Source of the DNA: Terramyces sp. JEL0728
Taxonomy: Eukaryota > Chytridiomycota > Chytridiomycetes > Rhizophydiales > Terramycetaceae
Length of the DNA stretch: 25,837 nucleotides
NCBI GenBank assembly: GCA_027603945.1
Contig: JADIIU010000162.1
Location: 1-25,837 of the forward strand
Direction: 5' to 3'
This document shows, in pieces, positions 1,559-23,056 of the stretch. Numbering within the stretch: position 1 is the first letter of the stretch; the number at the start of each line of letters is the position of its first letter. The position numbers and the translations under genes are program-made. The notes beneath the pieces were generated by a model. That model ran no database searches. It saw only the letters and a list, made by a program, of their open reading frames with translations, and was not told where the DNA came from.

Positions 1559-3333
1559 TTAATTCAGTATTAAATCTAACCACGAATCTTTCTTTTTCTG
1601 TACAGGTGGAGTCTCTTTCGGCGGAGTTGGTTCTTTTTTATACGGTATCTTTTCAATCCTCTCGTATCGTTCTTGACATAAATCAGATAGTGGCGACTCG
1701 CTATCGTAGTCTTCGTTTGTCTTGACCGATATTTGCATAGTTGGTGGTGGTGGGGGTATATAATTGCTTTCAATTTTTGTGATTTGTTTAGAAGCAACAT
1801 CTGATAGTTTGATTTCTGGTTCCTGTTGTTAGAAAATTGCACCTTTGGATCTACAGTAACTGGCACACTTTGAGTTACTACTGTTTGAGGTGATACACCA
1901 GAGCCAAATTCAATCTCTTCTTCCTCTCCTTCTGAGCTAAATCTATCTTGCTGTTCTGGTAAAACTATCCCCCCTGATATTTCCTCTTCCTCCTCCTCTT
2001 CTTCCTCTCCATCTTCTATTTCATTCAAATTCGTATTCATTGGTTCAATCTTTTCTAGTTTCGTGTCTGTTACTCCAGTCTTTGGCTTCTTTGCTGTTGG
2101 CGAGGTCGGTGCCGTATTTTCATCAACTTGGCTGATTAATCGTTTTTCAGGCGGTATTGGATTTGAATTTCGTCTTTCGCGCATTTTCCACATTGTCCTC
2201 ATTGTTTCAACGTGCTCCTCCAGCTACATTAATTTAAAGTACTGTTTCAAGTCTAACAGGGTTAATAATACTGTTCCAGCACCCCCGTATTCTCTTTTCA
2301 TCGTCTGCCATTTGTTTATCAGGTCTGTGTTAGCTAATAGTACCGAAACCTACAAAATCGCCATCCGCCTTTCCTTCGTTGACCTGCATATCCATTTTCG
2401 TATAAATATGTTTCCCAGTCTTTATCAAACCGGCAATCGACGATTTTTCCATCAGGTGGATTCATCTTCCATTCGTGTAATAATTCGGCTTCAGGGGTGA
2501 AATCGTCAAAGTATTTATGCAATTGCCGATCAGCGATAAATAGTTGATAATGTGCTTTACGTTCCTTATCCCATAGGATTTGTATTTTAAATGTAAACCA
2601 GTGCAGCTCTGGCGGCGACCAATAGAATAGTTTAGGATTATTTGGATTGCGCTGCGGGACATATGGCACCCGAACCGGTGTAAATATGAGTCCTTTAGGT
2701 GTCTTTTGGTTCTGTAATATTATATGAAGACCGTAGCTCCGTTCCTGCTTTTTCATGTCTACCTTAAATGCTTGCTTTTGAATATTAGGTAATAGTATAT
2801 GATGCGGTTTGATAATATCCTGCTGAAGAATCTACATTAAATCCGTCTACCCCCAGCCGTGTGCTAAAAGATCTCTGCGCTACAGATACACCATCTATGG
2901 CAATCAAATCAAATGCTGTAAAAGTGAAAACGACCTGCATCAGTATAAATTACTCCTTCTTCTGTTTCTTCCGCATTTATTTCCCCGTCAATTAATGTAT
3001 CATTGTGAAATAACTGGCTATTATTCGGTATAGGGAATAGCATTTGGTTGTATAAAAGTATATTTTCACTGGTGAATAGAAAGGTTGCTGGACCTTGAGG
3101 CGTTACTTCTAGGAATAAAAAAGAGCGAAGTCCAGTTCCTCTATCTGACACAAAGTAGTCATTATTGTCTATCACTGTAAGATGGGACTCTAGAAGTGAA
3201 GTAGGTTCTGCGCCTGAAAACCTGTAATTAAGTATGTGTACCACTCGGACTTTGCTGACAACAGATTCTTTATCTTGTTTCGGATTATCTCAACGTATCT
3301 GGGTTCAACTGGTTGTCCTATTGCCATTTTCAT
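1559..3333 (-). CDS. mRNA-capping guanylyltransferase-like protein with lost catalytic residues
   Basis: Seven exons: 3333-3242, 3221-2935, 2915-2851, 2831-2344, 2324-2243, 2223-1843, 1822-1559. The six introns are 19-20 nt, and the spliced frame encodes 552 aa. The match to fungal Ceg1-type guanylyltransferases runs end to end: GQPV near the start, HNDTLIDGEIN (motif III, 103-113), FDLIAIDG (128-135), RLGILQQDIIKPHH across the third intron, MKKQERSYGL, GLIFTPVRVPYVP, PDGKIVDCRFDKDWE and WRFCRFRPDK (OB fold, motif VI). Normal enzymes transfer GMP to 5' diphosphate RNA ends through a lysine in KxDG. Here that motif reads RGTG (Arg58 for Lys, Thr60 for Asp), motif IV has Lys194 where an acidic residue is expected, and motif V LLKWKP reads LFYWSP. 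GMP transfer is therefore unlikely. A tail of about 210 aa follows, with an acidic Glu run and a Pro/Lys-rich end. The family call is strong; pseudoenzyme status is inferred. Confidence 0.88.
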
Positions 3334-3639
3334 TTTTTCGAGATTTCGTTCAAAAAATTCGAGTATGATTTACGAGATGGTAAAACGAGAAGAGATATAT
3401 TAGAGTTATTTGCTCTTTATAGTAGTAGCTTTACAAGTAATTTAACTCGATTTTGAAGGCTAAAGTTGAACAGCTTGAATTACACAATCATATCGTCTGA
3501 TATACGTGCAGAATCCAGCCAATTCCACTGGGTAGTAATAAATAGATGGCAGCTGGCTTTTCTACCACGCTTTGATAAAGAACTGGAACATTTGAGATCG
3601 CACTTGAATAAAATTTTTGCAAAAAAATTATAGATACCA
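3334..3639. other. divergent promoter region
   Basis: A 306-bp gap between the starts of the capping-like gene (minus) and the PPR gene (plus), so it must carry both promoters. It is AT-rich. I see no clear motif or additional gene; the open minus-strand frame over 3480-3707 overlaps the PPR start and looks like chance. Confidence 0.55.
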
Positions 3640-6069
3640 ATGAGCTGCCTGTGTATACTAAAGCATAATAGATCGTTATTTCGGATATACCAACGCCGAC
3701 TACTCACTTCTCACTCGGTGCAGCAACCTCAAGACAAATTACAATATCTTCCAGCGGATAATTTACAAATATTTATGGAGACAATTAAAGAATATCCATT
3801 TAGCTTCAAAAAGGGTTCGCCGATACATACACAATTCAAAGCATTAAAACGGCAGAAACTGCCGGATCATGTCTACATTTCAAAGTTATATTTGCTGGAG
3901 AATGAGGTTGACACTGCATTTGAAATGTTCAAGCGACTGACTACTATAAAAAAGTTTCGCGGAGTGCTGGGCAGTCAGGAGCACTATCTTGCACTGAAAA
4001 GTGGGTCGCAGGATTCATTTGAAGTGGATGTAGTCAAGGAAAAAAAGAGGATCAAGCAGATACATGAGCTGCATAAACTCTTTGCCGATACAGATAAAGC
4101 ATCTACCTTTGAATACCACTTGGTCACGTTACAACTCCAAGGATACAAATTATCTCTAAAGGAGTTGATTGATATTTATAGCCGGCATAGAGACCATTCA
4201 AGGCAAATGTTTTTCGGTATTTTGCATGTGCTGCGGAATGACTCTTCAATTGTGCTTCAGTTTATAGAGCACTGTGAAATGGATGGACTGGTTTTTGACA
4301 CAAATATTTATACTGCGATTATGAAAGTGCTGGTGGACGACTATCCGTACTTGTCTATACAATACTTTGACAGGATCCAGCAACCGGATGTCATTAGTGT
4401 AGCCGTGTTGATCAAGGCTTGGAGTAACCTGGGAAATCCCGAAAAAGGATTTGAAATAATCAAGGAGTTTGAAAAGACTCATCCTCCTTTGCTGATGATT
4501 GTAATATTCTACTAATAGTAGTACACTGCACTGTTAAGTGGTTTTGCTGGTGGGGTCAACCGCTACGATTTGGAATCCATCTTTAATTTGATGCTTGAGA
4601 AAGGCTTGATACCTGATATGGCTGTGTATAATGTAATGATTAGGGGGTATTGCAAGCGAAATGATTCGCAAAACATTCTAAAGTATGTCTTGCAAGCAGA
4701 AAAGTACTATCGACCAGACAAGTACTTGTATGCTACTCTAACTCCATTTGTTTCGGCATTGCCTTCGTCGTCTGTATTGTATAGATGGTATGTTGACCGA
4801 TTTCAGAGGCATCCTTCTTTATCCAAGTTCCACTACGACGAATTTCCAGAAATATTGGGTGAAAAGTTCAAGAATCAAATGAAGCGTCCATTTAGACTCA
4901 AAGGAATGCTCTACCTTGTCCATCGGTATCTTCCTCGACAAAAATTGCCGTATAAATTCTTGTTGAAAGCTACACTAAAAAGACCTCAATTTGCGATGGT
5001 TCTTAATCGCTACAGGAAACACTTTAAATTAGATGCAGATATCTATTCTTTGTTGATATTACAATGTTATGGAAAACGACCTAACCAAGAGCGGGCTTGG
5101 AATTTATTTACCGAAATGAAAAAGGACAAGATTATTCCAACGCCTTTGGTATACAGAAACCTGCTGCTCGTTTGTCGTAAATCGAATGATGTAAAAGGCT
5201 GCAGCAATATTATTGATGAAATAATAGAACAGAATGTTATTATGGAAAAAGGGATGGTGGTAAACATAATGGACATGCTGCTTCGAAACCAAACAAATCA
5301 GGCTACGCTATGGCAAGTAGTGAAAAAGAGAACATTGACACCATCACAATCTTCAAAATTTGACGCATCTTTTCCGAGAATGAATGCTGTAGAACAAAAG
5401 TCAATTACAAATCCGCCTTTGGTTAGTTTAATTGACAGTGCAGTTAAATTTGTCGAATACCAACAGAAGATTCAATTAAAACTAATACCAATTCCTGGAA
5501 AGCAGATTAATAGGTTGATTCGCAATGTACTAGTGCTGGACAACCCATCGCAATACCTTGAAAAGGTTTACAGGTGGATTAAGGGGGCTAACGATGGTCA
5601 ACTTGAGTTGGCATTCAAACATCAATTAATGAAGTCTCATTTATGGGATTTGGCGAATGCATATGTTGACGTTGAACTTAAAAAGAAGCATGTCATTGAA
5701 CTTGCGCAAAATAGAGAAGTATCTCAGTTATATACAGTGTTTAAGCTGTCGCCTGAACCAGAAATAACTTCGTTGATTATAGAGCAGTTGGGAGTGTACA
5801 TTAAAGACGAAAAGCTCACCAGATTAGTATACCAAGAAGCAGTAAAATCAAGTGATATAGTTTGGAGTTATATTCGTAGTCTCGTTTGGTGGGGATACCT
5901 TGAAGACGCCGTCCAAGTATCGACAGTCGGGTTGCAAGTCGACGACAAGACTGTACCGGTCAAGCTTGGCAGATGGTTGAAGTTGAAAGGCCTAGCGGAT
6001 TTGCAAATGAAACTTGTTGGGTATTGGAATGAACATAGACCGGATTGGAAAGTAGAACAAGAAATTTAA
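3640..6069 (+). CDS. pentatricopeptide-repeat protein, probably mitochondrial
   Basis: Two exons, 3640-4500 and 4522-6069, encode 802 aa. The 21-nt intron (4501-4521) contains an in-frame TAA, which is why the unspliced frame appears to stop at 4515. Splicing restores a consensus PPR across the junction: IYTALLSGFAGGVNRYDLES then IFNLMLEKGLIPDMAVYNVM. Further repeat-like helices follow, such as IYSLLILQCYGKRPNQERAW and LFTEMKKDKIIPTPLVYRNL. The N-terminus (MSCLCILKHNRSLFRIYQRR) is basic with no acidic residues, as in a mitochondrial presequence. PPR proteins bind organellar RNA and act in its processing, stability or translation; the RNA target cannot be read from this sequence. It is divergently transcribed from the capping-like gene. 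Confidence 0.88.
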
Positions 6070-6689: not shown

Positions 6690-7277
6690 ATGTATCATTG
6701 CAACCCGAGTAAAAAATGCAAATTGATTGTTCGACAATCACCCTTCAAAGGCAGAGAAGCTGGACTAAAACAACCATATTTACAAACGCACTTGTAAAAA
6801 CAATTAATCTAGGTTTCCAGCTCTAATCCTGCAGGTGGAATTTGACGAAGCACAAACCCCAGAGCAGGTAATACCGATTCTGATGCAGTTAAACTCAATG
6901 AAACTAGTATGCAGCGTTATTCTGAATGATTCCGAAAGCTCCATGAACCTAACGACTCTAAAGAATTCATATTACAGCAAAAACCCATTCACATGCAACC
7001 TTACTGGTGATTTAACGACCGCCGGAGCTGTCCTAGAGGATCCTGAAGACAAGAAACAAAAATTATTCTTTATATTTAATGATCTGAACATCAAAGTCGT
7101 CGGTGAATACATTTTTCACTGTATAGTCCTTAATTTACAAGAGTAATCTGGTCTTAATGTAGCGCTTCACAGTTAATGACTGTTCAGTCAAAGTCTTTTA
7201 GTGTTCTCCTGCGTTCTCATTTTGTAAAATCCACCATCAAGACTTCCTTGTCGCAGTATTTGGAGAGTCAGTTATAA
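6690..7277 (+). CDS. small velvet-domain protein, array copy 1
   Basis: Exons 6690-6793, 6813-6867, 6889-7142 and 7163-7277 join to 175 aa; introns are 19, 21 and 20 nt. Velvet proteins are fungal DNA-binding regulators of development and secondary metabolism with an NF-kappaB-like fold. Family landmarks in order are LIVRQSPFKGREAGLKQP (velvet start, RQxP), FPALILQVEF (equivalent of PPPIVQLEV), YYSKNPFTCNLTGDLTTAGA, VLEDPEDKKQKLFFIFNDLN, IKVVGEYIFHC (equivalent of sVRTEGxYrLkF) and KSTIKTSLSQYLESQL (equivalent of eSTxLsrxLaxQG). The protein is little more than the domain. It has no long linker, PEST or clear nuclear signal, unlike VeA/VelB/VosA. The middle intron is 3n and stopless, so an unspliced form would add seven residues (VIPILMQ). 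The family is clear although divergent; the regulon and partners are unknown. Confidence 0.85.
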
Positions 7278-8380
7278 TTATTCAATATTCATCTCTATTC
7301 GTTCTTTTTCGTATTCGTCTTGAATCTAAAGCGTCGATTATTGCTGGTTGAATTCATGAACTATGAATTGGGGCTGGGTTGCAAAAATCACCAACTACAA
7401 ACCTGTTTCATCGCGCTGAGGATTGTTCATTCCTTGCACTTTTATGGATGTCTTTACAATTTGGCATGGGACAGCGATTTTTCGAATTATATTTCCAACA
7501 TCAGGTTTGGCGTTGCTAGCAAACCGGGATAGCACTGCGAAATTACGCTGACAAAGCCTCAACAGTCGATTTGCAGGCTGAAGCCGTTGTTAATTCGTTC
7601 AAATGTATCAAGTGTATATTTTTGTGGAAAAGATACAAAAGGAAAACGGTAGCCAATCAGGTTATTGAATGGTGCCTCAAAAACGAAAGCGGGTAATGGA
7701 ATCCACCATCTCTTTTTTTCTTTGTAAAAAAGCTTGGAGCGTTTAAAAGGTGGAAATCCACCATTAGAAGTTGGAAGCTACTGGTGGGATTGAACCTCCG
7801 ACTGTAGGCTGCTCGATCTGGTGAAAGCTGGACCACCATCCCCACAAAAATCATTGCATAGCAGATAATTAGGTATTAATTAGCTTTATTTTATCACAAC
7901 GTTAGAACTGTCAAATATGGATATATGACATCATTTCTTTCTTTGAAAAATTACTTTTAAAAATTCTATACGAAAGCGTTAAAATATTTAATCTCTATTA
8001 AATTTGAATCATCGAATTGGATAGAATTTAAATAAATTATATTTATCTGCCACTGATCTAGCGTTTTATTCTGTATATCGGGATCAGATATTCTAAATGC
8101 CGCGATAACGTTGCAGAAAATCAAGTAATTTAGCTACTACAATAGCTACCGAGACTCTTTCGTTAATTTAATTCACAGATGCTAATAGATATGCATGTGC
8201 TATATTTAGTAACACAGGGAAATTCCGCCAATGAATTCATTCACCGCAAATAGGGACACAAGAATTAAATATACTGGTATGGAAATTTTTGGAAAAAGAA
8301 AGAAAAAGATTAGTATATATATCGTCATTTGAAATGTCCACAGACGCTTGGTAGGTTTCGTACTAAAAATTCGCAAAGCT
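7278..8380. other. long spacer between velvet genes 1 and 2
   Basis: About 1.1 kb without a recognisable gene. It holds the second ATGACATCAT element (7925-7934) and the AAATATTTAATCTCT 15-mer (7982-7996). Around 7650-7850 there is a GGTGG/CCACC-rich patch with a hairpin (GGTGGAAATCCACC, 7749-7762) and, on the minus strand, sequences resembling RNA polymerase III A and B boxes but no tRNA cloverleaf. The open frame at 7320-7532 does not start with ATG and matches nothing I know. Confidence 0.5.
7925..7934 (+). promoter_or_regulatory. ATGACATCAT element, velvet gene 2
   Basis: Second copy of the shared 10-mer, followed by TTCTTTC much as at gene 3 (TTCTTGC). It sits 57 bp before the shared 15-mer; at gene 1 the equivalent distance is 43 bp. 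Confidence 0.4.
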
Positions 8381-8952
8381 AAACCCACAGAATATTCTAC
8401 TATTATCCGGCAATCCCCCTTCAAAGGAAGAGAAGCTGGTTTAAAGCAGCCATATCTAAAATCACATCTGTACCAGAGTGCTAATTTAGGTTCCCACCTC
8501 TGATTGTCGAGGTAGAATTTACCAGACCATTGTCAAAAGAGCAGGTAATACTTTGGTAACTATAAGCTATGTGCTTATAGGATTACATGTACAGTTAGCT
8601 TGAAAGATGCTGTAAATCATTGTGATATGACCACCCTAGCGAACGAATACTACAGCAGATACCCACATACGCCGAATTTAACCGGTAATCTAACAGCCAT
8701 TGGACAAGTACTGGTGGATCCAAACGATAAAAAGCCGAAACTGTTCTTTCTTTTTGATGATCTCGATATAAAGGTGATTGGCGATTACATATTTTGTTGT
8801 TCTATCGTGAATATGACAGAGTAAGTGTTTCTAATGGTAGCTTTTCTATGTTTGAAGTGCTTAGCAAGCCTTTCAAGATTTCCCTGAGGTCAAATTTTGT
8901 AAAGTCGACAATAAAGACACCACTGTGGTTGCATCTGGAAGGCCAGTTGTAA
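8381..8952 (+). CDS. small velvet-domain protein, array copy 2, no start codon found
   Basis: Exons (8381)-8469, 8490-8544, 8567-8820 and 8841-8952; introns are 20, 22 and 20 nt at the same positions as in the other copies. The reading gives IIRQSPFKGREAGLKQPYLK, FPPLIVEVEF, YYSRYPHTPNLTGNLTAIGQ, VLVDPNDKKPKLFFLFDDLD, IKVIGDYIFCC and KSTIKTPLWLHLEGQL, a good velvet domain. Exons 2 and 3 have the same lengths (55 and 254 nt) as in the three sister genes. The start is odd. Where genes 3 and 4 have ATG (8 codons before the I/IRQ motif) this copy has AAA at 8381, and no in-frame ATG exists back to the TGA at 8330. Either a further upstream exon or non-ATG start is used, or the gene has lost its start and is an early pseudogene. 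The left coordinate is set by alignment. Confidence 0.7.
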
Positions 8953-9182
8953 AAGAAAAAATACAGTTTTATTGAATTAGCTAATAAACTTTAAAGTGCA
9001 GAATTTCATTTTTGTTTTAAATATCACCAACTGTGGCCAACAGCAAAGCAAGCGCTCTGGTACCAGCAGTGTAATACCAGTTAATTTGTTTGGATTACAC
9101 GGATATTTATCCGCTCATTCCATTAGACTAACACATCGGAATTGATTCAAAGTTTCCTACTATCATAATTTGAATTCTAGAT

Positions 9183-10646
9183 TCATTTTTGTTTATTGAA
9201 GTAAATGCGAAAAGGATACTCTTTTGACAATAGATTTTTGTACGTTAATTTCATATTTTGGCGAAAAGACAGACAAAACTGTACCGCAATTAACTTTGAT
9301 CTTCTAAGAGTGTCTGCAAACACCTGCAATGAGTGTTCATTAATTTCCCTATTTTGGGACAAGGTTAAGTAACAAATTGACGATTTGCAAATACAGTGCG
9401 CAAATTGCTTCAGCATGGCCGTATCATTCAGGTCCAGTCTTCCCAAGGATAGGCTTTGCAAATTTGTCCTTGACAAATGCTTTCCAATCCTGATCATGTC
9501 TTCAGATTCAATGCTCCAATTTCTCATTTGTAATTCGCGCATTGAGCTCTTTTTGATTGATTCGATAAAATTAACCACCGCGCCATTGGAGGCATAGCTA
9601 CATTCTATTTCTAATTTGGCAACAGGTAGATTGTTTACACATTTCGAGAGAATTGCCAAACCTTTGTCCGTAAAAAAACTGCAATTATGTTCTATGCGAC
9701 TCCCATAACAGTAACTACAAGCGCTTCGAATACACAATGATTCCAGTTTGGATTGAGATATTGCAACGAGGATGCGTTCCAGATGCTGAATGCATATTGA
9801 GAGCGAGACTTTACGTAAATCGGATTTGACAAGATTCTTTGCAAATAATTCACAAATTGAATCAGTGGTGAGCTCCAAACCATCAATCTCTTGCAATTTA
9901 CTATCAGGCAGTATTTCAATCAAAGGAGTTAGGTGTTCATCAAAAAGGAATTCAGCCACCATTGCCAAATATCTAATTGTAGAATTTTTAATCGCGTTCG
10001 CAAGAATATAAAGTTCATCTTCTCGAGCCCACCTCAGATCAAATCTGAAACGGATCAAGTTGCTTTTGACAAGCCCGTCAGAGATGCCTTTCCAATGTTC
10101 AAAAGAAACAACGCCAAGATTTAATTGCTTCAATCGCCCATCCACAAGTATTTCCCGTAAAAGTGTCACATCTTTTTCATCCATCCATTCAACACTAAGG
10201 CTTGTCATTTTACCACGCATATTTTCCAAAATCCAAGTCTGATCATCTCCTTTAAAATAGCGTGGGAATTCAACACTTGTTTTAATATTCAAAAGAGCAA
10301 ATAATTCTTTGTTCAACCCCGAGAATTTAGTTCTACCGTAATTTGACCCATATCCGTAAAACGCACTAGCCTCCAAATTACTACACCTCGGCAAGTTAGC
10401 CAGCAAGTTCTGCTGCTTCACTTCAACCGACAGCTTTTTCAATCTGAATCCTCTTTTTATGAAATCGGGAAGATTGTCCATGTATTTTTGAAAGAAGAGT
10501 TCTTTGTTTAAATCTTTCTTTACCAAGAACTGAATATTCTTTAATGGCTCCAAGTAACAATGAAATTCCTTGTTGGTGGTTGATAGAACGAGAATATCAT
10601 CCTCGTCCAAATAATCGAGAATTGCCAAAACGAGATCTTTGAACAT
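9183..10646 (-). CDS. F-box/leucine-rich repeat protein
   Basis: A single exon encoding 487 aa. The N-terminal 40 residues (MFKDLVLAILDYLDEDDILV then LSTTNKEFHCYL) fit an F-box, which docks Skp1 in SCF ubiquitin ligases. The rest is a run of irregular leucine-rich repeats, for example KLQEIDGLELTTDSICELFA, NLQSLSLGRLDLNDTAMLKQ and SICYLTLSQNREINEHSLQV, the usual substrate-recognition part. The start is the only ATG near the F-box. The gene lies on the opposite strand inside the velvet array, convergent with velvet gene 2 (230 bp between stops) and divergent from velvet gene 3. The substrate is unknown. It is not a close paralogue of the other F-box gene at 20444. Confidence 0.75.
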   Translation of the reverse strand: MFKDLVLAILDYLDEDDILVLSTTNKEFHCYLEPLKNIQFLVKKDLNKELFFQKYMDNLPDFIKRGFRLKKLSVEVKQQNLLANLPRCSNLEASAFYGYGSNYGRTKFSGLNKELFALLNIKTSVEFPRYFKGDDQTWILENMRGKMTSLSVEWMDEKDVTLLREILVDGRLKQLNLGVVSFEHWKGISDGLVKSNLIRFRFDLRWAREDELYILANAIKNSTIRYLAMVAEFLFDEHLTPLIEILPDSKLQEIDGLELTTDSICELFAKNLVKSDLRKVSLSICIQHLERILVAISQSKLESLCIRSACSYCYGSRIEHNCSFFTDKGLAILSKCVNNLPVAKLEIECSYASNGAVVNFIESIKKSSMRELQMRNWSIESEDMIRIGKHLSRTNLQSLSLGRLDLNDTAMLKQFAHCICKSSICYLTLSQNREINEHSLQVFADTLRRSKLIAVQFCLSFRQNMKLTYKNLLSKEYPFRIYFNKQK

Positions 10647-12029
10647 TTTTGTGAAAAATGAGTCAGTTCTTTAAACAGATGCAGCAGTTATTTTTATTCT
10701 AGGATATGATATTAGAACTTTGGATCAAATAAAAGATGGACTAGAATCCTGTCAGAAAAGCTAAAAAGATTGCACAGGTCTTGAAATATTTCCGCATCCA
10801 CCTAAAACCTATGAGAATACCACTCTTTTCCAAAAGCACGAAGCAATCCGGCTGAACTTGCAAGTAGAGTTATTATACATGGCATAAATCTTGCAAAAGG
10901 TGCCTTGTGACCAAATAATTCCGACCAATCAATTTATTGAGGTAAGAAATCACCATATTCGGATAGTTATGGATAAACCCATTCTGCAAATTTTCAATTG
11001 GATGAACTTGGAATTCTCAATGGGGAATATTAAGGTCTCACTGACAGTCTTACAATCAAACCTCACATTTCAACTTGAGATGCAAACCACTCTCTAATGG
11101 GTACACATTACTATTTTGGTTGAAGAGTTGGCAGGAAAAAGACTTTCCACTTGGATGAAGAGTTTGGGCAGATTCTGAGTTGTTTATGCGGCTATCCATT
11201 TTATACAAAATTCGTCACAAATCCAGCGCAATTAGCATTAACCGTTTTTGTTATTGGTCAAACAAAAATTCCCGTGTCTGACCGCAAATTCCTAATTCTT
11301 TGCTTCACTGCCATACAAATACAGTATTGTCCATTTTCTTTTGGTCGTAACCTTGAAAGCTTTTTCATGGCCCACACCAATCATTCTATTGAACCACCAA
11401 TCTATTTCAACGGTATGACTCAAAAACTTACCAAATTAAACAAATATTTTTGATATTGGCAGAGGCTGGTAGTAGTTGGAGGGCTTGTATTCAGAACAGC
11501 TATTCGCAGACAAGCTGATCTTTCAACGGCAAGCTTTTAACGGACAAACTCAGCTTTAGTAGTCCAAACAACGTCTACATTCAATGAGAAAGGATGCCAC
11601 ACTGTTTTACTTTGCCATAATTTGATGACATCATTTCTTGCATTTCAAAACGTTATCTCGCATTTCCATAGCCAAATTTAGAAATAGAGCACTTATCAAT
11701 GATTAAATACTACCAGATTGTATTCAAAGATGTCTGAAGGTATTCAATCATTGAGGTGTATCACTTGATTATATCTTTGTTACTCCAAGAACTAGAGCAC
11801 TATTCGAACATGCAATTTTGAATACGCTGAATACTTTTATACAAGTAGCATCAAAGATTGTATTGTATCACCTATCTCTAGAAATGGAAATGTGTTTATC
11901 TAGCAGCTACACGCACCCTGGTCGATACAGGTTTTATCTTGCGCGGAATCTTTAGAGATTATTCTACAGTGACTTTAATTTTTTAGATTTAAGAGTGTTG
12001 CGTCCTGGTAACTTTTTTATAAAAAACAT
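10647..12029. other. long spacer between F-box gene and velvet gene 3
   Basis: Almost 1.4 kb with no convincing gene. Open frames at 10891-11097 and 11151-11453 start at non-ATG codons and are low-complexity or hydrophobic with no family match. It holds the third ATGACATCAT (11625-11634) and a patch (about 10903-10932) that resembles one at 12935-12968 in the next spacer (CCTTGTGACCA ... CCAATCAA). TGACCAAATAAT occurs at 10908 and again at 12791. Confidence 0.5.
11625..11634 (+). promoter_or_regulatory. ATGACATCAT element, velvet gene 3
   Basis: Third identical 10-mer, 405 bp before the ATG of velvet gene 3, extended on the right to ATGACATCATTTCTT as at gene 2. No copy was found before velvet gene 4. 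Confidence 0.4.
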
Positions 12030-12627
12030 ATGCCCTCGCAATTCAACGTGTTAATCCGACAAGAACCGTATAAAGGCAGAGAATCTGGATTGAGACAGCC
12101 TTATTTGCAAACACATTTGTATTCTACACTCTAATTAAGATTCCCTCCATTAATCCTCCAACTGGATTTTGATAACATGCAAACTAAACACCAAGTACTT
12201 TGGTATTAACTTTTAGTTGGATAATATCAATATTCTGTGCTCAGTAAGGCTTCAAGACCCTGCAACAGAGATGGATTTGACGGTGCTCGCCAACGAGTAC
12301 TACATCAAATACCCATTCAACTCCAACTTGACTGGCACTTTAACAAAGCACGGGATAGTACTCTTGGATCCGAAAGATAACTGTCCAAAGATGTTCTTTA
12401 TCTTTAATGATCTCAACATTAAAGTTAAGGGAGAGTATATTCTAATCTGCACGCTGGTTAATGTTGAAGAGTACAACTTGACTTACAATAGCCTCAGGAA
12501 TGTCATTAGTGTTAAATCCAAACCGTTTTATGTAGAGTTGAGATCAAACTATACAAAGACGAGTATCAAGACATCGCTTTCCTTGTACTTGGAAAGACAG
12601 CTTGAGGCAAAGCCTAAAAGGCACTAA
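12030..12627 (+). CDS. small velvet-domain protein, array copy 3
   Basis: Exons 12030-12118, 12140-12194, 12217-12470 and 12492-12627 encode 177 aa; introns are 21, 22 and 21 nt. Landmarks: VLIRQEPYKGRESGLRQP, FPPLILQLDF, YYIKYPFNSNLTGTLTKHGI, VLLDPKDNCPKMFFIFNDLN, IKVKGEYILIC, SKPFYVELRSNYTKTSIKTS and a slightly longer basic C-terminus (EAKPKRH) that might aid nuclear entry. The third intron is 21 nt and stopless, so the frame stays open across it. Its position and GT/AG ends match the third introns of the other copies, which argues that it is spliced. The start is the ATG at 12030, directly after a TATAAAA-like run. Function as for copy 1: probable velvet-type DNA-binding regulator, target unknown. 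Confidence 0.85.
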
Positions 12628-12646
12628 GCTCAGTATTTATATTTTT

Positions 12647-12652
12647 AATAAA
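12647..12652 (+). terminator. AATAAA poly(A) signal-like site after velvet gene 3
   Basis: Canonical hexamer 20 bp after the stop codon of velvet gene 3. Motif evidence only. Confidence 0.35.
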
Positions 12653-13570
12653 TTCCGTTGATAAATGGAGTTGCTTGATTTCCGCCGTGATTTAATTGCA
12701 TGGGTTTCAAAACGAGAAGGATATGACTACTAAATGTTTGCATTTCAATAAGTTGCTATAAAACAACAAGTACCATTGGCAGGAATAGCCTGACCAAATA
12801 ATATGCAGATTCAAGATGTCAGTTGGTTATTGATATTAGAATGATGGCAGGGTGTATACCGCCATTCGGTTACTCGATTGACACATGTATGCTTCCTTAA
12901 TGTTTCTCTGAGCATTAGTTTTGTCCATCAAAATCCTTGTGACCATTTCCCGAATCCGGACCAATCAAATTACTGTAGTGGCACCGAATATGACCAAATT
13001 TTCCAAACACGGGATTTGACCACTCTGTATTTTGCCATCAAGTTAATCCAGCATATTTCAATTCATAGAGTGTATACCAATCCCACAGTATTGGTGTCTT
13101 TATCAAAAATCACGGACACTTGGCTAGTTACACAAAAGAAACTCCGTCAAAAATCAAACTCCGACTGGTGAGTAATGCAAATCAGGATAGAGATTATGAG
13201 AATTTCTTGCAGCCATTATTTTTTGAAACAATCTCACAATGAGGACGCACTGCAGAAAATAGTTTACAATATAATTTCAGATGGGCTAACTGCATGCAGA
13301 AACGACTCGGCTGATTTAAAATAATATTTAATGTAAAATACAAATTTATGTGATATCCACGTAAGGATGGAATCCTTCTGTACCCTTACTCTGCTTTTTT
13401 TTGTGTACAAGAAAATTGGTTAGAGGTCCAATTGGTAGGACTTTGATCTCCACCAATGAATTCACTAACCGAGGATTCAAGGAATCTAGAAAAAGTGACT
13501 GTCCGCAAACCGCTAGAAATAAACTCAAGGAGCGAGTTTTGTTATTTTTTTTGCATCCAAATTTGGCGGA

Positions 13571-13576
13571 TATAAA
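13571..13576 (+). promoter_or_regulatory. TATA box-like TATAAA of velvet gene 4
   Basis: TATAAA 34 bp before the ATG at 13605, in GGATATAAACCC. Suitable spacing if the leader is very short. Confidence 0.4.
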
Positions 13577-13604
13577 CCCTCCGTTTTAGTTCAACACCGC
13601 CAAA

Positions 13605-14175
13605 ATGGAAACACCTAAAAATGTAATCATCCGACAATCGCCATTTAAAGGACGAGAAGCAGGATTGAAACAGCCATTCTTATTAACTCATCTGTAACCA
13701 TTGATTAAATAGATTTCCTCCTTTGATATTGCAGTTGGATTTTGCTGGACCGATGTCAAAGGAAGAGGTATCTGCCTAATAATCAAGCTGTCCTCATATA
13801 CATACATATGCTCAGTAGCGCTAAAAAATCCAGATATTTCGATGGATCTTACCACCTTGCACAACTCTTACTATAGCCGATACCCATATACCGCAAACCT
13901 GACTGGAACGTTAACTGTAGCCGGAACCGTTCTGACTGACCCAGAGGATCGTAAGCCAAAAATCTTTTTCCTATTTAACGACTTGAACATCAAAGTTTGT
14001 GGGGACTACGTTATAACTTGCGCTATAGTGAACCTTGCACGGTACTTGCAGCTAATCTAGCCCAAAAGAAATTATTCTAGTCCAAACCAAAGCATTCTCT
14101 GTGTTAATGAGGTCCAACTTTATAAAGCCAATAATCAAAACATCCCTCTCAAAAAGCTTGGAAAATCAAACGTAG
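13605..14175 (+). CDS. small velvet-domain protein, array copy 4
   Basis: Exons 13605-13693, 13713-13767, 13788-14041 and 14061-14175 encode 170 aa; introns are 19, 20 and 19 nt. Landmarks: VIIRQSPFKGREAGLKQP, FPPLILQLDF, CSVALKNPDISMDLTTL, YYSRYPYTANLTGTLTVAGT, VLTDPEDRKPKIFFLFNDLN, IKVCGDYVITC and KPIIKTSLSKSLENQT. Without the third splice the frame would stop at 14058-14060 and lose the last velvet strand; the 19-nt removal restores the KxxIKTSLS motif shared by all copies. It is convergent with the receptor-like gene at 14236 (60 bp between stops). It lacks the upstream ATGACATCAT element of the other three copies. Confidence 0.85.
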
Positions 14176-14203
14176 TACTCGAGAGAATGTACATAAAGAT
14201 GTC

Positions 14204-14209: not shown

Positions 14210-14235
14210 AATGCTTTAATAATTATGATTACAAT

Positions 14236-15649
14236 TTACTTTATGTGGGCAGCACCGGGAATCTTTAATTCATCTTCCATACTTTCCTGCTCTATTAATA
14301 GCTCTTGCTGATATATGGCAGGGATTCCCACAGGTGGAGATTCATTTTGTTTCTCAGCGGGGATTTGCATTCTTGGTACGGAAGGAGGGTGATACTCTGC
14401 ATTTTTTAAACTATGATGATGTGGTAAAGATGGAAGTGGAGTCTCATCATTGACAGGTGCTGAAATCGGAACCATTTGAATAGAGGCATTTGATGCCGAG
14501 TAATTTCGTGTGCGATCATCAAGGGTGCTATTTGATCGGACATCCTGATTCTTTTTGGTATTGGTATGCAATTCAGCGGTCGAGTTAGCTGCTGAATAGA
14601 GCATCGAGTTGGAAATTTCAAATTTCTTTACAATTGATTTTCTCCCGTGGTTCCTTGTACAATAAATGAAAATTGCAAATCCACCAATGGGAAGAAATAA
14701 AAGACACAGAGGCAGGAACACTTTAAGCAACAGCAATGGATCTGGGCTCGAGCTTGTTGAACTACTTTAAATAACAATTACGGAACTACACCCTTTGCTG
14801 GTTGAGTTTGAGCAGCTACAGGCATATCAAGTGTGCTGGTGCTATTGTCTGTTCCTAACGAGCTTGAACAAGTAATTGTATTCAAGATGTTGGAGCACTG
14901 AGGACTACGAGATAACAAGAAACCACTATTTTTGTAAGCTCGCTGAGCAGTAAATGACAAATTATCTATCGATCTGTCAAATAAATAACATGTCTGATTA
15001 TCAGCTCCACTATAGCTGTAATCGTAAGCTGTGCAATCTATGTAAATTAGAAATTACAATTGTAACCACTGCACTGGGTCTGGCATTCGTTTTCTGTTTG
15101 GTTGGAAATGTAAACGAATGGCTGTTCGTTGATTACACTCTTAGCGAGCGAATATAAGTCTCCATATCTTTTGAACGAATATCCTTGGTACACTCCTCGT
15201 GTTGAAGAGTTATCAGTTGACAATGTATTGTTTCTACATCAGGAAATAGTTACGGGACAATACAGTTGATATCTCCTTGGTTATCAAAACAAAATGGATT
15301 GAAATTCATGTAAAAGCTGGTTAGTTTGGACTTACCCGCACGACATTGTTCCTTCACTTGTGATATTGAGGGTAGCAATCGACCTATCATGTAAAAAACA
15401 CTGAGTTGTAGTTGGGTTGTAAGTAAATGCTGAGCATAAATAACTACTATTTCCAAGTGCTTTTGCACTGGGTTGGACAACAGTACTACAAAGTGTTATG
15501 CAGTCATTGAATGAGTTGGAAATATTCACTTGGACGTAGTCGCTGTTTATCTGACAAGTATTTGAAGTGTACAATGAGCCTGATTTGAAAAACTTTACTC
15601 CATTGTAGATGGATGCTACTACTGTACCGAATAGTAGTGTCAGTTTCAT
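14236..15649 (-). CDS. two-module cysteine-rich (PAN/apple-like) type I membrane protein, copy C
   Basis: Exons 15649-15336, 15316-15254, 15233-15058, 15037-14782 and 14761-14236 encode 444 aa; introns are 19, 20, 20 and 20 nt. The start MKLTLLFGTVVAS is a short signal peptide. Module 1 reads YNGVKF ... SLYTSNTCQI ... NDCITLC ... CSAFTYN ... CFLHDRSI ... SCGFYMNFNPFC. Module 2 reads GVYQGYSF ... GDLYS ... ECQTQCSGYNYCTAYDY ... CYLFDRSI ... GFLLSRSPQCSN. A Ser/Thr-rich stalk, one membrane span (about 279-304, LLLLKVFLPLCLLFLPIGGF) and a 140-aa cytoplasmic tail follow. The CxxxC ... CxxF/Y ... C-x-L-xDR pattern suggests a PAN/apple-type fold, a protein- or sugar-binding domain; this is by pattern, not alignment. 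Introns 1 and 3 are shared with copies A and B. The tail lacks the GELPINPR motif of A and B. The ligand is unknown. Confidence 0.78.
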
Positions 15650-15871: not shown

Positions 15872-17139
15872 TTAGACAGTCTCTTTATTAACCAGCAATG
15901 GAGGTTGGACGTCAGTCTCCAACTCTGTTCGTGGCTGTTGTTGCAAGCAAACGTGTAGCGGAACGTTCCTGTAGCCATTGATCCCATCCAACAAAGGCGG
16001 CTGACTAAAAGTATCTTCAGGGATGTACGGTCTGGGATTGATTGGTAGCTCTCCGATATCCTGTGACACTCTTTTCCTCTCCAAACTCATACTCGTATAC
16101 ACCGGCATTGGTGTTGATTGCGGTTTCGTAATCGGTGTTTCAGCTATGATAGTTGATGCATATGAAGCGATAGGCGTTGATTTGGACGATATTATTAAAG
16201 TACTGTTTCTCTTCCTTTTAAAGGCGAATACTACAACCACAACCAAAAATACAACTGCGGCTGCAGGTACCAAGTACACAGCTATTGGCTTTGCATCTGA
16301 AGTTGACACGGCACTGGTGCTCGTGGTTGTGCCAGCTGGAGGATCAAGCGCATCTTCACAGGTGATATTATTCCCACTATTAGAACACTGAGTAGTTCTA
16401 CTCAACAAGAACCCACAATTCCATCCTTTTACATCACTTGCGGTGTTAAACGATAGCTGGTTCAAAGGTTTATCATACATGAAGCATCCAATAAACAAAG
16501 TGGATAAATTACCAACTGAGAAAGCAGTACAGGCTACATTAGCAAAGAGAACCTTTTGTAGTCTGACATCTGGATATACATTCGTCAAACGATTGCACTT
16601 GCGGTCCAGCTATATACAACTGATTAGTTCTGCAACTGGTAAGCGAATACAAATCCCCGGTAGCAGTAAACCTTGTTCCCTGGTAAACCCCACTCGTAGC
16701 ACCAACCAGACTCTGTCCACTATTATTTGGTATATTACAAAACACAGACTCTTGATTATCCTTACAATACGGATTGTTGCTCAGTATAAACCTGTATTAA
16801 TTATGGTTACCCACAAGAATTGCCCGTACTGGAGAATACACTGAGTAGATTGATTGAGCGGTCGTACAACCGGCAATTGTTTGCAGAGTAAGCATAGGAA
16901 GTGCAGTTGAACCCACCACCAGGCAAGGTTTGTGTAGCATTAGCACATTTCAAGGAACAATCGACTGCTGAGGTAGCATTAACTTTTTGGAATTCGGTAT
17001 CGCTTATCGTACACACATCTGATGTATAAATTCCGTTTTTGGTGGAAAAGGAGATTCCATTGAACGTTGAAGCTGCGACTGCTCTAAAGAATAACATTGG
17101 CAGATAAGTCGTCAACCATCTCTGATACCCTTTTGTCAA
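15872..17139 (-). CDS. two-module cysteine-rich (PAN/apple-like) type I membrane protein, copy B
   Basis: Exons 17139-16811, 16791-16553 and 16533-15872 encode 409 aa; both introns are 19 nt and match the positions and phases of introns 1 and 2 of copy A. A signal peptide starts at 17139 or, shorter, at the ATG at 17097 (MLFFRAVAASTFNG), which aligns better with copy A. Module 1 ends NSCGFILSNNPYC. Module 2 runs GVYQGTRF ... DECISRCQTTKACTAF ... CFMYDKPLNQLSF ... CGFLLSRTTQCSN. A Thr/Ser-rich stalk, a membrane span (VYLVPAAAVVFLVVVVVFAF) and a basic KRKR stop-transfer follow. The tail holds GELPINPR (350-357), QPPLL and a C-terminal VQPPLL. The architecture resembles fungal surface sensors, but no ligand or pathway can be read. 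Spacing to neighbours is about 220-230 bp, so each gene has its own promoter. Confidence 0.8.
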
Positions 17140-17368: not shown

Positions 17369-18632
17369 TTATTTCTCTATCAATCTCAAAATTGGCGGTT
17401 GGAGATCTTTGATCTCACGAGGTTGATTGGGCAAGGATGTTTGATTCTCGCTGTTGTTTTGTTGTAACAGCGGTGGTTGAGCGTTCCTAATAGTACCCAT
17501 TGATTGATTTATTCGAGGGTTGATTGGCAATTCTCCCACTTCACTTTTGTCGGCAGTTGTTTGCACAATATACTTTGAGGATGGTAGATGGTTATGCTGT
17601 AATTGATACGGGCTTTGATTATACTGGCTTGGAGTGTCTCCTGGCGGTGAACTGGAAACGGTAGTAATTGGAGTAGAGCTAGATGAACTATCATTCTTTT
17701 TTGGTCTTCCAAAGTAGACACCAAGACCAATCAATACCACCACTGCTAGCACAACAGGAACAATAATAGCAACCAAGTTTGGGCTTGAACCTGACGCTGA
17801 AGTCGAATTTGAAGGGGTTGAAGTTGCGGTTGGAGAACTAGCAGTACTGGCACCAGAATCGCTATTTCAGAAAAATTATACTTTATATCAGGACAAGCAA
17901 TAGATTTACCGTCATTGAAACACTGAGTGCTTCTGCTTAACAAAAAGCCGCAACTCCATCCACTAACATTGACTTGCGAGTTGAACGAATACTGATTCAC
18001 AGGTCTATCGTACAAGTAACATCCAGCTGGCGTAGTGCTTAGATTTCCAGCAGTAAAAGTGGTACAAGCTAAGTAAGAATAAAGTACCATGGGAACTCTG
18101 ACATTTGGATGCACAATCATCGATACTATTTACTTGAACGGCCTGCACAAACATTTCGTTGGTTCTACAACTAGAGCGTGAATAAACGTCGCCGTTTGCA
18201 TTAAATTTGACACCATCGTAAATACCGCTTTGAACTCCAGACACGGTCTTTCCGCTATTATTTGGTATATTGCAAGTAACGGTACCTTTGCTATCCAAGC
18301 AATACGGGTTGTTTCCCAAAATAAACCTAAATTAACAGGATATACCCACAAGAATTACCGCTACTCGAAAACAGACTCAAGAGATTGATTGAGCGGTCGT
18401 ACAACTGGCAATTGTTTGAAGCGTAAGCAAATGAAGTGCAGTTGAAATTTCCTCCGAGTAATTGACTTGCAGTATTGCATTTTTGCAGACAATCTGCATT
18501 TGACGAAGCGTCTACTTTTTGATATTCAGGATCGCTAATTGTGCATGAGTCTGAAGTGTAAAAATTGTTGTTTGTATTGAAATTGATGTTGTTGAATGTT
18601 GCAGCATGCGCTACTGAGAGAAGCAACAGCAT
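17369..18632 (-). CDS. two-module cysteine-rich (PAN/apple-like) type I membrane protein, copy A
   Basis: Exons 18632-18346, 18326-18088, 18068-17882 and 17861-17369 encode 401 aa; introns are 19, 19 and 20 nt. Signal peptide MLLLLSVAHA. Module 1: FYTSDSCTISDPEYQKV ... ADCLQKC ... CTSFAY ... CQLYDRSINLLSLF ... NSCGFILGNNPYC. Module 2: GIYDGVKF ... DDCASKCQSSHACTTF ... CYLYDRPVNQYSF ... CGFLLSRSTQC. The third splice opens a Ser/Thr-rich stalk that leads into one membrane span (about 268-289, VAIIVPVVLAVVVLIGLGVY). The cytoplasmic tail carries GELPINPR (347-354), QPPLL and a near-terminal LQPPIL, as in copy B. Exon 2 is 239 nt in both A and B. Probable cell-surface binding or sensing protein; the ligand is unknown. 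It is the upstream-most member of a three-gene head-to-tail series. Confidence 0.8.
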
Positions 18633-18994: not shown

Positions 18995-19955
18995 GGCTGA
19001 CCAGGTTGAATAGGATGCGGACCTACAGCAAGGACTTTACGACAAACAAAGCAGTGACTTTCATCATCTGTTTTCACATCTATATTTTCGAGTTTCTGTA
19101 ATATAGATTCCAATTCCAAGTCAACTTCAGTATCACTGAACTCTACTTGAACAAAGGATTCGGCAGACACTGGTCCTGGCTCAAATAGGGTTTCCATGCT
19201 GGTGTTTGAAACGGTGGAATCGCGGTGCTCTAGTATCTTTTCAGGCGATAGCTTGGATTCAAAGTACAGGTTTACATATCGCTCTTGTAACAGGTTGCGC
19301 TGGTATGTATCGGGGTGTCTAATAAAGAACGGATCAGAGAACCAGTCGTCTTTATGGAACTGCATGGATTGTGGTCGGTAGTGACGGAGTCTTTTTACAG
19401 CTTCCTGCGGTGTCAAGTGATATTTCTCCATAAGGAATATGGCTAAAAACGTCCCTGTTCTTCCAACACCTGCATGACAGTGGACAATCACTCGCTTTCC
19501 TTTTTGGATCGTTTCATTCGCATGCTTTAAAAAGATATCCACTTGCTTAAAAGACGGAACGTAGCCATCAGATATAGGGAGAAACAAGACATTCAACTCG
19601 TCTTGCTCAGTTATGTCATCAAACACATCCTCATCGCAATATACTTCTGTGGCATCGTAATTACAATTCGGGCAGTAGGTCAAGTTACTATAGGTTACTG
19701 GTGCTTCAGTTAAATTCACAATCAATCCAACTTGCTCTTTAACCATTGCGGGATAATTCACTCTTTCCACCTTGAATTAAATATTATTACTGGTATAGAG
19801 GTTCCTCCAATCAGTTCATTACCAACCCAGCTAAAATGCCATGGCAAATCAGGGTCAGACGGGTAGCATTTGCTCGGCCTGCCTTGTTTCGTTTTCCTAG
19901 CTTTTGATTTTAAAGACGGGCTAGATTTATCATTTACAGGACATACTGCATTCAT
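18958..19955 (-). CDS. dual-specificity protein phosphatase, DUSP23-like
   Basis: Exons 19955-19791 and 19770-18958 encode 325 aa; the intron is 20 nt (GTAATAATATTTAATTCAAG). The signature HCHAGVGRTGT gives Cys153 and Arg159 of the HCx5R phosphate loop, and LPISDG places the general-acid Asp123. GGTSIPVERVNYPAMV and GLIVNLTEAP match the start of the small DUSP23/archaeal-like cysteine phosphatase fold, and the helix TPQEAVKRLRHYRPQSMQ follows. The C-terminal 90 residues are acidic and contain CFVCRK and a proline-rich end (PGQPWPPASP), with no known domain. A basic N-terminal stretch (KSKARKTKQGRPSK) could be a nuclear signal. The substrate is unknown. Its start faces the F-box gene at 20444 across a shared promoter region. 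Confidence 0.85.
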
Positions 19956-20443: not shown

Positions 20444-21566
20444 ATGAAATTACTTCCAACTGAAATATGGTCATTGATAGCAAATTACTTGCCGCAAAAA
20501 GACTTGATTCGGTTCTGCAAAGTATCAAAGGCACTATTTCATACAGGAATTCGAATACTATACAAACATCCAAAGATACCACCAATGGCAACAAGAGACA
20601 GCTGGACAACTTTTATAGACTTGCTAGAGTACAAGAACGGCTACTGTGACTATAGCCAGTATATAAGCGAATGCGATGATATAGATATATGGATGCACTA
20701 CGGTGATGGTAAGCGAATTTAAAATAGACTCGCCAAAGCTAGAACGACAAGATTCAAAGATGGATGATATCCCGCAATACTCTGTTTATCACGCTCTGGA
20801 CATTCTGATGAAAGGCAGATTATCCAAACTCTCCATCCATTTTCACTCTTATTTGCTGGAGTGTTTACCGTGGACACGAGGATTTGAAACTCTTTCGTAC
20901 TTGGATTTAAAGATACTAGTTACGGACGCATTTCTTTCAGTGATATTTAAAGAAGCAAATAATTTGAAATCGCTGTACTTGCAGAGAGCCGAGATATCTG
21001 ACGATGGTTTATTCCAGATTGCAGACAAGTGTAAACAGCTAGTAAATCTTTATATCAATATGATTCCATTGTCAGAGAGGAGCAGATATGCAATGATGAC
21101 TGACACGAGCAGAGGAAAACTAATTTCAAACAGCGGAGCGCAGCATTTATTTGAAAACCTTGAACATTTAATATCTGTAGTCATCAATAATGTTGAATTG
21201 GGCCCAGAATGCTTTACAATGCTTAATCCAAACATTATTTCACTCTCTCTGAATCTCAGCTACAGTGTTGGAATGACATTCGAGAGTGTGGAACTGTTGC
21301 TAAAAGAATTACCAGATATAAAGCAATTAAAATTAATACCCGGCAGTTCTCTACTTGAATCTGTGATAACCGAAGAATTCATTACTGGAATCCCAGAAAT
21401 ACTAAAGAAAATTGAAAAGATTGATTTGCAAGGGTTTGATTACCGAAAAGACAATGTTTATTATGGAGTCAAGAGTAATATGTGGTACTTGGACGAATTT
21501 AATCAGAAATTCAAAAAGATGTATCCCGAGATTCAGCTTGTTTACAATAATCAAGCGATTTATTAG
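20444..21566 (+). CDS. F-box protein with degenerate leucine-rich repeats
   Basis: Exons 20444-20708 and 20728-21566 encode 367 aa; the 19-nt intron is GTAAGCGAATTTAAAATAG. The N-terminus MKLLPTEIWSLIANYLPQKD then LIRFCKVSKALF is a canonical F-box (LPxEIxxxIxxYLxxxDLxxxxxVSKxF), so Skp1 binding in an SCF complex is expected. After the splice, repeats such as GFETLSYLDLKILVTDAFLS and NLKSLYLQRAEISDDGLFQI look like irregular LRRs for substrate binding. Without the splice the first frame would stop at 92 aa, leaving the LRR part orphaned. The ATG at 20444 directly begins the F-box. Convergent with the amidase gene (about 190 bp between stops). The substrate is unknown. Confidence 0.82.
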
Positions 21567-21757
21567 CAAATATATTTCATCATTCGTTTTAGGCAATAAT
21601 TTAAAGGTTTCTTGCTAGTGCAATCTGTTTGTTACAGTTTTATCACCGATATAACAATTTGATTAATATACAGCTGTTTGATAAAAATCAACCAAGATTT
21701 TGCATTGCTACAAGAATGTCTGCCAGTATATTACAAGCCCTTTACGAAAAGAAACCA

Positions 21758-22522: not shown

Positions 22523-22572
22523 TTTTCGAAAGATTGAAATTTTGGGAGTGAAAATTAAATACAAAGAGTTTA

Positions 22573-23056
22573 TTACAACAACTTTTCAATTGCTGGAATC
22601 AAATCCTTTGGTTCAGTTTTAGGGTTGAACCTTTCAACTACTTTTCCATCCTTTCCAATCAAGAACTTTTCAAAATTCCACGCAATATCTTCATTGCCGG
22701 TCTGTTCCTTCAAATACTGGTAAATTGGAGCCTGGTTGTCTCCATTTACTTTAATCTTTTCCATAATTGGGAATGATACACCGTAATTCTTTTTACAGAA
22801 CGATTCGATTTCTTCGGCAGAACCTGGCTCTTGTTTTGCGAATTGGTTGCATGGGAATCCTACCACTACTAATCCTCTGTCCTTGTATGTCTTGTACAAA
22901 GATTCAAGTCCTTCCAAGTGGTAAGTTAGACCACATTTTGAAGCAGTGTTGAAAACTAAGACTACCTGCGTTAATTAAACCTACTTTTCCTTGCAGTGCC
23001 GCATTGTCGAATGGTTTGCCGTTCAATGCATTGTTTTGGAATTGGTAAATTGACAT
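22573..23056 (-). CDS. glutathione peroxidase-like (thiol peroxidase)
   Basis: Exons 23056-22985 and 22965-22573 encode 154 aa; the intron is 19 nt (GTAGGTTTAATTAACGCAG). Splicing yields VVLVFNTASKCGLTYHLEGL, with Cys35 in place of selenocysteine, followed by GFPCNQFAKQEPG (active-site Gln) and IAWNFEKFLIGKDG (active-site Trp and Asn). Cys81 in FCKKNYGVSFPIM is in the place of the resolving cysteine of yeast Gpx3, so a thioredoxin-dependent two-cysteine mechanism reducing H2O2 and lipid peroxides is likely. The length is that of the short fungal forms. No signal peptide; probably cytosolic. The start MSIYQFQNNALNGKPF is standard for the family. Confidence 0.93.

Follow-up and report, generated by a model that had tools for sequence, protein, structure and literature searches.

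Predicted U2-type spliceosomal introns of 19-22 nucleotides in the nuclear genome of a chytrid fungus

Can the nuclear genome of a fungus carry spliceosomal introns of only 19-22 nucleotides (nt) as its usual kind? The question is raised by contig 162 (JADIIU010000162.1) of the Terramyces sp. JEL0728 assembly, which comprises 15,016,339 bases in 231 contigs. We analyzed a stretch of 25,837 nt of this contig, hereafter the window. An original prediction, made from the letters of this stretch alone, had described a fungal-type genome in which 31 short GT...AG segments interrupt conserved genes and represent spliceosomal introns. The organism is indeed a fungus: Terramyces, like Boothiomyces, belongs to the Terramycetaceae (Rhizophydiales), and the host is a chytrid (Chytridiomycota). 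The analysis below indicates that the segments are almost certainly U2-type spliceosomal introns of a chytrid nuclear genome, most of them with a fixed small geometry and a length that would be held in place by a spacing limit and by deletion pressure.

A recount of the window gave the same set of segments. All 31 begin with GT and end with AG, and they include 14 segments of 19 nt, 11 of 20 nt, four of 21 nt and two of 22 nt. Their hosts are 12 genes and not eleven, the number originally stated alongside a gene list that itself sums to 12. These are a capping-enzyme-like gene with six introns, a PPR-protein gene with one, four velvet paralogues (V1 to V4) with three each, three PAN-like genes (A, B and C) with three, two and four, and single-intron genes for a dual-specificity phosphatase, a glutathione peroxidase and a protein labeled F-box. 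The lengths of 27 of the 31 segments (19, 20 or 22 nt) shift the reading frame. As predicted, removing the segments restores the frames: the 12 host stretches contain 3 to 28 internal stops each when unspliced and none after removal. The start codons of the PPR and V2 stretches are provisional, and the V1 stretch stops short of the stop codon. Most segments were also said to carry CTAAT, CTAAC or TTAAT near the 3' end, which holds for 20 of the 31 when the motif is read strictly and for 30 when a relaxed branch motif is allowed.

We compared the number of such segments with chance expectation by scanning for a GTR start, a YTAAY 3-9 nt from the end and an AG end, with dinucleotide shuffles as the reference. 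The window contained 10, 13 and 7 segments of 19, 20 and 21 nt, versus about 3 each in 60 shuffles. The same scan, which makes no use of homology, was applied to a 200-kb sample consisting of bases 20001-30000 of 20 other contigs that were picked by number, with their content unseen. This sample contained 70, 79, 35 and 25 segments of 19, 20, 21 and 22 nt, versus 17.2, 20.3, 17.6 and 17.5 expected (15 shuffles). A count of intron lengths beyond the window, which the original prediction had proposed as a check, thus reveals a peak at 19-21 nt. Summed over 19-22 nt, the excess is about 136 per 200 kb, and extrapolation from this 1.3% of the assembly yields an estimate of roughly 10,000 tiny introns in the genome.

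The length peak was also present in a test that ignored the branch motif. Here, a Viterbi gene finder used codon statistics, GT and AG as the only intron signals, and flat intron lengths of 12-120 nt. It called 114 well-flanked introns, of which 72 were 19-22 nt long, while the other 42 were spread over 13-115 nt. When four fake dinucleotide pairs replaced GT and AG, the finder returned only 4, 5, 5 and 12 introns of 19-22 nt out of totals of 93-108. A GC-AG version found 4 introns at 19-22 nt and no length peak in the 20 loci. An earlier pass, in which the background was taken from all sequence, was weak: of its 39 strict introns, 22 were 19-22 nt long.

On the window the motif-free finder mis-split several genes, and a model with learned donor, branch, acceptor and length signals was used there instead. 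This learned model, which depends on the motif-free run, assigned lengths of 19-22 nt to 133 of 138 well-flanked introns and, with weak calls counted, predicts 1.9 introns per kb of coding sequence. Trained without the window, it recovered 23 of the 31 listed introns. Its two weak extra calls in the window, at 19023-19047 (score -3.1) and 9809-9830 (score -4.7), are probably wrong. Relaxed settings on the velvet genes raised the recovery to 27 of 31 and added one more weak extra call at 8946-8966; the last four introns, which start at 8470, 8545, 13694 and 15317, rest on frame and paralogue position. The score by itself is unspecific. Both strands of the window together contain 691 GT...AG stretches of 19-22 nt; 50 of them exceed a score of 5, and by hand count 26 of those are listed introns. 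Genome-wide, the pattern GTAANTN{1,31}CTAAYNTAG had 369 matches versus 109 for a reversed control. By hand count, 88 of the 100 matches inspected were 19-22 nt long.

The introns share a narrow internal geometry. The donor consensus is GTAAnT-like and the branch motif is YTAAY-like. We picked the best branch A of each intron by its motif. Among the 133 introns that are 19-22 nt long, it lies 13 or 14 nt past the first G in 113 and 5 or 6 nt ahead of the last G in 114. Counted in addition to the first G, these distances are mostly 13+5 in 19-nt introns, 14+5 or 13+6 in 20-nt introns, mostly 14+6 in 21-nt introns and 15+6 or 14+7 in 22-nt introns. The candidate branch A is therefore nucleotide 14 or 15 in 113 of the 133, an arrangement distinct from that of heterotrichs, where introns of 15-16 nt have the A at nucleotide 10-11.

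We then looked for the machinery that could act on such introns. The assembly contains a U2 small nuclear RNA (snRNA; 140 bits) with the sequence GTAGTA, and the branch motif fits the branch-pairing sequence of U2. All four spliceosome protein families searched for were found, namely Prp8 (774 bits, one domain), Slu7, Prp18 and a U2AF-like protein. The original prediction had suggested an inspection of branch points and U2 components: U2 and a narrow spacing of the candidate branch A are there; U1 and U6 were not found. In yeast, Slu7 and Prp18 are needed mainly when the distance between the branch and the 3' splice site is long. Loss of these two factors in Terramyces is ruled out, as both are present. 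Loss of the U2AF large subunit for want of room for a polypyrimidine tract is likewise not supported, given that a U2AF-like gene is present with a match of 252 bits, below the curated cut-off of 310 for its family.

Some of the spliceosome genes seem to contain tiny introns themselves. Four introns of 19-20 nt are predicted in the U2AF-like gene. The Prp18 gene has a 20-nt GC-AG intron whose removal joins AAWPIGV to GIHER; introns of this type may be rare, because no GC-AG peak at 19-22 nt was seen in the 20 loci. The proposed distribution of 19-22 nt GT...AG introns therefore describes the bulk of the introns, and has to be extended by at least this one GC-AG case and by a few longer introns. 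The latter include the first intron of an RPS3-like gene, which is 45 nt long and has canonical signals (L016:4814-4858, +).

Homologous proteins support the predicted junctions. For all three proteins tried (capping enzyme, glutathione peroxidase and PP2A-A), homologues in the PDB align across the junctions. Of the spliced capping-like protein, the N-terminal 360 residues align to capping-enzyme alpha subunits over residues 13-354 (4pz6, E-value 3e-25), a range that spans five of the six junctions. Spliced glutathione peroxidase aligns to Hyr1 (3cmi, E-value 2e-50) without a gap at the junction. A PP2A-A gene on another contig, from which seven introns of 19-22 nt were removed, aligns to the PP2A-A subunit of 9j5i over residues 5-567. 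Spliced V1, V3 and V4, the three velvet products scanned, pass the Pfam Velvet cut-off, and the two PAN-like products scanned, A and B, pass the PAN_1 cut-off.

The velvet paralogues provide a further comparison. Three intron positions are common to all four genes, and their spliced products line up. At these sites, the lengths in V1 to V4 are 19/20/21/19, 21/22/22/20 and 20/20/21/19 nt. Such differences of one or two nt within a site are incompatible with all of the segments being in-frame coding sequence. Together with the statistics from other contigs, the homology, the U2 snRNA and the spliceosome proteins, this bears out the original proposal of spliceosomal introns of 19-22 nt.

Deposited gene models contain traces of these introns. 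The deposited Terramyces capping protein, P0180 (500 residues), includes pieces of 37 and 159 residues that match the window DNA with 100% identity in tblastn. Of the six tiny introns in the capping-like gene, it reads through or skips five, and it drops stretches that are kept in relatives. Consequences are visible in Pfam, where P0180 scores 36.1 bits for PF01331 and has no match to PF03919, versus 83.7 and 30.7 bits for the spliced model. The segment of the sixth intron (1823-1842) is absent from P0180, so the deposited annotation already seems to hold at least one 20-nt intron. A search with the PP2A-A protein had a top identity of 72% (Globomyces pollinis-pini), and the Terramyces protein itself was absent among the 120 matches listed. 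Since the database does include proteins from this strain, the absence suggests that its PP2A-A gene model is broken or missing.

Similar traces occur in related genera. Protein P0181 of Boothiomyces sp. JEL0866 has seven extra residues, YFIFHNR, exactly at the first capping junction; judged from the protein, translation of a 21-nt segment as coding sequence would produce them. At the fifth capping junction, P0186 of Globomyces sp. JEL0801 has foreign residues relative to P0183 of G. pollinis-pini. Back-translated by hand, these residues would correspond to a GT...AG segment of 26 nt, after which the frame shifts. Another rhizophydialean, Rhizophydium megarrhizum, has assemblies of about 15.4 Mb. 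Sections of the report on this species list 207 genes with a Gonapodya model versus 9,233 with a yeast model, and protein-level completeness of 40.5% for one metagenome-assembled genome and 77.7% for a single-cell genome (PMC13391722). Its authors point there to reference quality and to fragmented genes, and tiny introns may have contributed.

The evidence for the individual introns differs among the host genes. In the capping-like gene (3333-1559, -), introns 2 to 5 (2935-2953, 2832-2850, 2325-2343 and 2224-2242; 19 nt each) are supported by the learned model, by protein comparison and by frame. Introns 1 (3222-3241) and 6 (1823-1842), both of 20 nt, are supported by the learned model and frame, to which the Boothiomyces insertion and the deposited P0180 add further support for the first and the sixth, respectively. 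KxDG is the motif of capping enzymes. At the KxDG position of solved capping enzymes, the Terramyces protein has SDRGTGLR, and the same letters are found in Boothiomyces P0181. The protein thus seems to lack the catalytic lysine, and the gene may be a paralogue or encode an enzyme that has lost its activity. The learned model and frame also support the intron of the PPR-protein gene, which ends at 6069 (4501-4521, +, 21 nt).

The velvet paralogues lie within 6690-14175 (+). The V1 introns at 6794-6812 (19 nt), 6868-6888 (21 nt) and 7143-7162 (20 nt) were found by the relaxed model and by frame. In V2, the intron at 8470-8489 (20 nt) is supported by frame and by a position common to V1, V3 and V4, the one at 8545-8566 (22 nt) has a weak motif and is supported by frame and paralogue position, and the third (8821-8840, 20 nt) is supported by the learned model and frame. 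Learned model and frame also agree on the first two V3 introns (12119-12139, 21 nt; 12195-12216, 22 nt), while the third (12471-12491, 21 nt), which has no in-frame stop, was found by the relaxed model. In V4, frame and paralogue position support 13694-13712 (19 nt), and the learned model and frame support 13768-13787 (20 nt) and 14042-14060 (19 nt). With 65 exon-level matches across the 15-Mb assembly, several of them clustered on contigs C5, C14, C35 and C45, the velvet family is greatly expanded in Terramyces.

All but one of the remaining introns are supported by both the learned model and frame. They are located in PAN-like gene A (18632-17369, -) at 18327-18345 (19 nt), 18069-18087 (19 nt) and 17862-17881 (20 nt), in gene B (17097-15872, -) at 16792-16810 and 16534-16552 (19 nt each), and in gene C (15649-14236, -) at 15234-15253, 15038-15057 and 14762-14781 (20 nt each). 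The exception is the first intron of gene C (15317-15335, 19 nt), which is supported by frame. The phosphatase gene, whose coordinates (19955-18961, -) exclude the stop codon, contains an intron at 19771-19790 (20 nt). The gene at 20444-21566 (+), for which F-box is the label of the original prediction only, contains one at 20709-20727 (19 nt), and the glutathione peroxidase gene (23056-22573, -) contains one at 22966-22984 (19 nt), the junction that is ungapped relative to Hyr1. Two neighboring tyrosinase genes lie at 23191-24465 and 25188-25837 (-). Boothiomyces sp. JEL0838 has matches to the former under two consecutive tags, HDV04_005172 (79% identity) and HDV04_005171 (64%). At the other end of the window, positions 1-1136 (-) hold two tandem short-chain-dehydrogenase-like copies that have identical stretches in common and no predicted tiny intron.

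Several observations weigh against the interpretation as tiny spliceosomal introns. In the window, the motif scan also exceeded expectation at 41 nt (7 segments) and 61 nt (6 segments), which was not so in the 200 kb. In the 200-kb sample, 22 nt exceeds expectation by 7.5 counts, and lengths of 13, 34, 51 and 78 nt do so by as much (7-9 counts). The coding model of the motif-free finder was trained on GT-AG gene calls and is mildly biased toward GT-AG, and frame-based calling is blind to stop-free introns of 21 nt, which leads to an undercount. Five of the 138 introns called by the learned model are longer than 22 nt (24, 44, 45, 45 and 87 nt), and signals are weak in some window introns, including 8545-8566 (score -1.6) and 15317-15335 (score 1.2). 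A 45-nt intron predicted in the PP2A-A gene proved false: the homologue has 15 residues there, which form the sole large gap of the alignment, and the segment is coding. The U2AF-like match, as noted, falls below its cut-off, and the snRNA set recovered is incomplete. U1 had no Rfam match in the assembly, as was the case in the control genomes. For U6, Rfam returned only two matches of 27 bits versus a cut-off of 44, and a second U6 core pattern had a single match, with one mismatch, apparently in coding sequence.

The two U6 matches below the cut-off sit in near-identical sequence on contigs C199 and C111 (L010 and L011) and are probably a repeat or a duplicated gene rather than U6. An intron within U6 was considered as the reason for missing it and was not supported: the pattern ACAGAGA...GATTAGC had four matches, one of them on the minus strand, versus three in the control, and the other three look like chance in their context.

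These points have to be weighed together with other explanations of the segments. Assembly or sequencing artefacts, frameshifts in decaying genes or a chance GT...AG pattern might be suspected in a draft assembly of 231 contigs, the more so as the segments were originally chosen by frame repair and 24 window stretches off the list also score above 5. Such an origin is nevertheless extremely improbable: a length peak independent of frame is found on 20 contigs picked by number, the fake-dinucleotide and genome-wide reversed-pattern controls contradict it, paralogues have intron positions in common and a sister genus has an insertion at the same site. Equally hard to credit is the possibility that the segments are cut from DNA and not from RNA, like the internal eliminated sequences of ciliates. 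Some of those in Paramecium are similar in size, but ciliate internal eliminated sequences are TA-bounded, whereas 31 of 31 segments have GT and AG ends and their YTAAY-like motif fits pairing with U2. The organism is moreover a fungus, and we know of no comparable DNA elimination in chytrids.

It is also very unlikely that the segments are translated through, with splicing in some copies only. Boothiomyces P0181 and Terramyces P0180 do hold residues that were apparently read from such segments, but the frame-shifting lengths of 27 of the 31 oppose this, and conserved residues and a Pfam domain are missing from the deposited read-through model. A different alternative accepts that the introns are real and spliced, and explains their narrow length as a by-product, either because introns were gained from a short template or because a single intron family spread. 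A narrow length and common motifs would be expected of copies of one element, and the introns are numerous at the predicted density. By eye, however, they are unlike each other outside the donor, branch and acceptor, and the velvet paralogues have their positions in common. We consider this origin unlikely, if worth keeping in mind.

We thus favor ordinary U2-type introns that have been squeezed to the spacing that the spliceosome can still use. A GTAAnT-like donor would be followed after 13-14 nt by the branch adenosine in a YTAAY-like motif and, 5-6 nt further on, by the final G, and these spacings would sum to 19-22 nt. U2 would pair with the branch motif, and an ordinary spliceosome would remove the segment through branching followed by ligation of the exons. 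A lower limit imposed by the spacing that the spliceosome requires would, combined with deletion pressure, keep the lengths within a narrow range. From these patterns we infer removal from the RNA, the identity of the branch A and the limit-plus-deletion cause.

Tiny spliceosomal introns are a known kind of intron. New, as far as searched, are their occurrence in a fungal nuclear genome, the presence of the tested spliceosome factors and the scale. The original prediction knew of no fungal nuclear genome with such lengths, and among the literature matches listed no title or abstract opening reports introns of 19-22 nt in one, which does not prove their absence from print. In the available parts of a survey of 644 fungal genomes, Cryptococcus neoformans, with a mean of 63 bp, is an example of relatively short introns (PMC8476143), and a comparison of Batrachochytrium, as far as its text was available, reports intron numbers and not lengths (PMC5364385). 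One practical implication is that gene sets of this genome, and perhaps of relatives, contain errors at some loci if they were built with customary minimum intron lengths; one deposited protein examined here is an example.

Until now, tiny introns have been associated with ciliates, relic nuclei and highly reduced parasites. According to portions of the report on the ciliate Stentor coeruleus, its introns are 15-16 nt long and most have the branch A at nucleotide 10 or 11 (PMC9505925). Like Terramyces, Stentor has genome-wide tiny GT-AG introns, a near-fixed branch position and many conserved spliceosome parts. Those portions describe no strong branch consensus, however, while the Terramyces introns are 19-22 nt long, with the candidate A at nucleotide 14-15 in a clear YTAAY-like motif. 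The introns of Paramecium and Nyctotherus differ by a longer mode and belong to an unrelated lineage. Chlorarachniophyte nucleomorphs, with more than 800 introns of 18-21 bp as stated in parts of PMC10245619, have a similarly narrow length range, but they are relic endosymbiont nuclei with extremely reduced genomes, unlike the 15-Mb fungal assembly.

The remaining comparisons are with parasites. The same parts of PMC10245619 report 224 introns of 16-17 nt and 17-19 identified spliceosome proteins in Mikrocytos mackini. Mikrocytids thus resemble Terramyces in having conserved tiny introns in a narrow range, and differ in their low intron number and few spliceosome proteins, compared with the roughly 10,000 introns extrapolated for Terramyces and its Slu7 and Prp18. 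Encephalitozoon cuniculi, of a fungus-related lineage, has 37 introns of 22-76 nt in the sections available (PMC3629993); these are also short GT-AG introns, down to 22 nt, but they are few and the organism is a highly reduced parasite. On balance, we lean toward the view that in the Terramycetaceae an ordinary spliceosome drove or allowed most of some 10,000 introns to shrink to a ruler of 13-14 plus 5-6 nt. Terramyces would then be the first fungal nuclear genome known at the limit without a parasite-type reduction of the spliceosome, and Globomyces, with its putative 26-nt intron at one common site, would be an intermediate. The Terramyces introns appear to be near the shortest known in any organism and open the lower limit of intron size to study in a fungus. 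With thousands of tiny introns, a clear branch motif, Slu7, Prp18 and a U2AF-like protein, this chytrid makes the minimum spacing of the spliceosome testable across close relatives.

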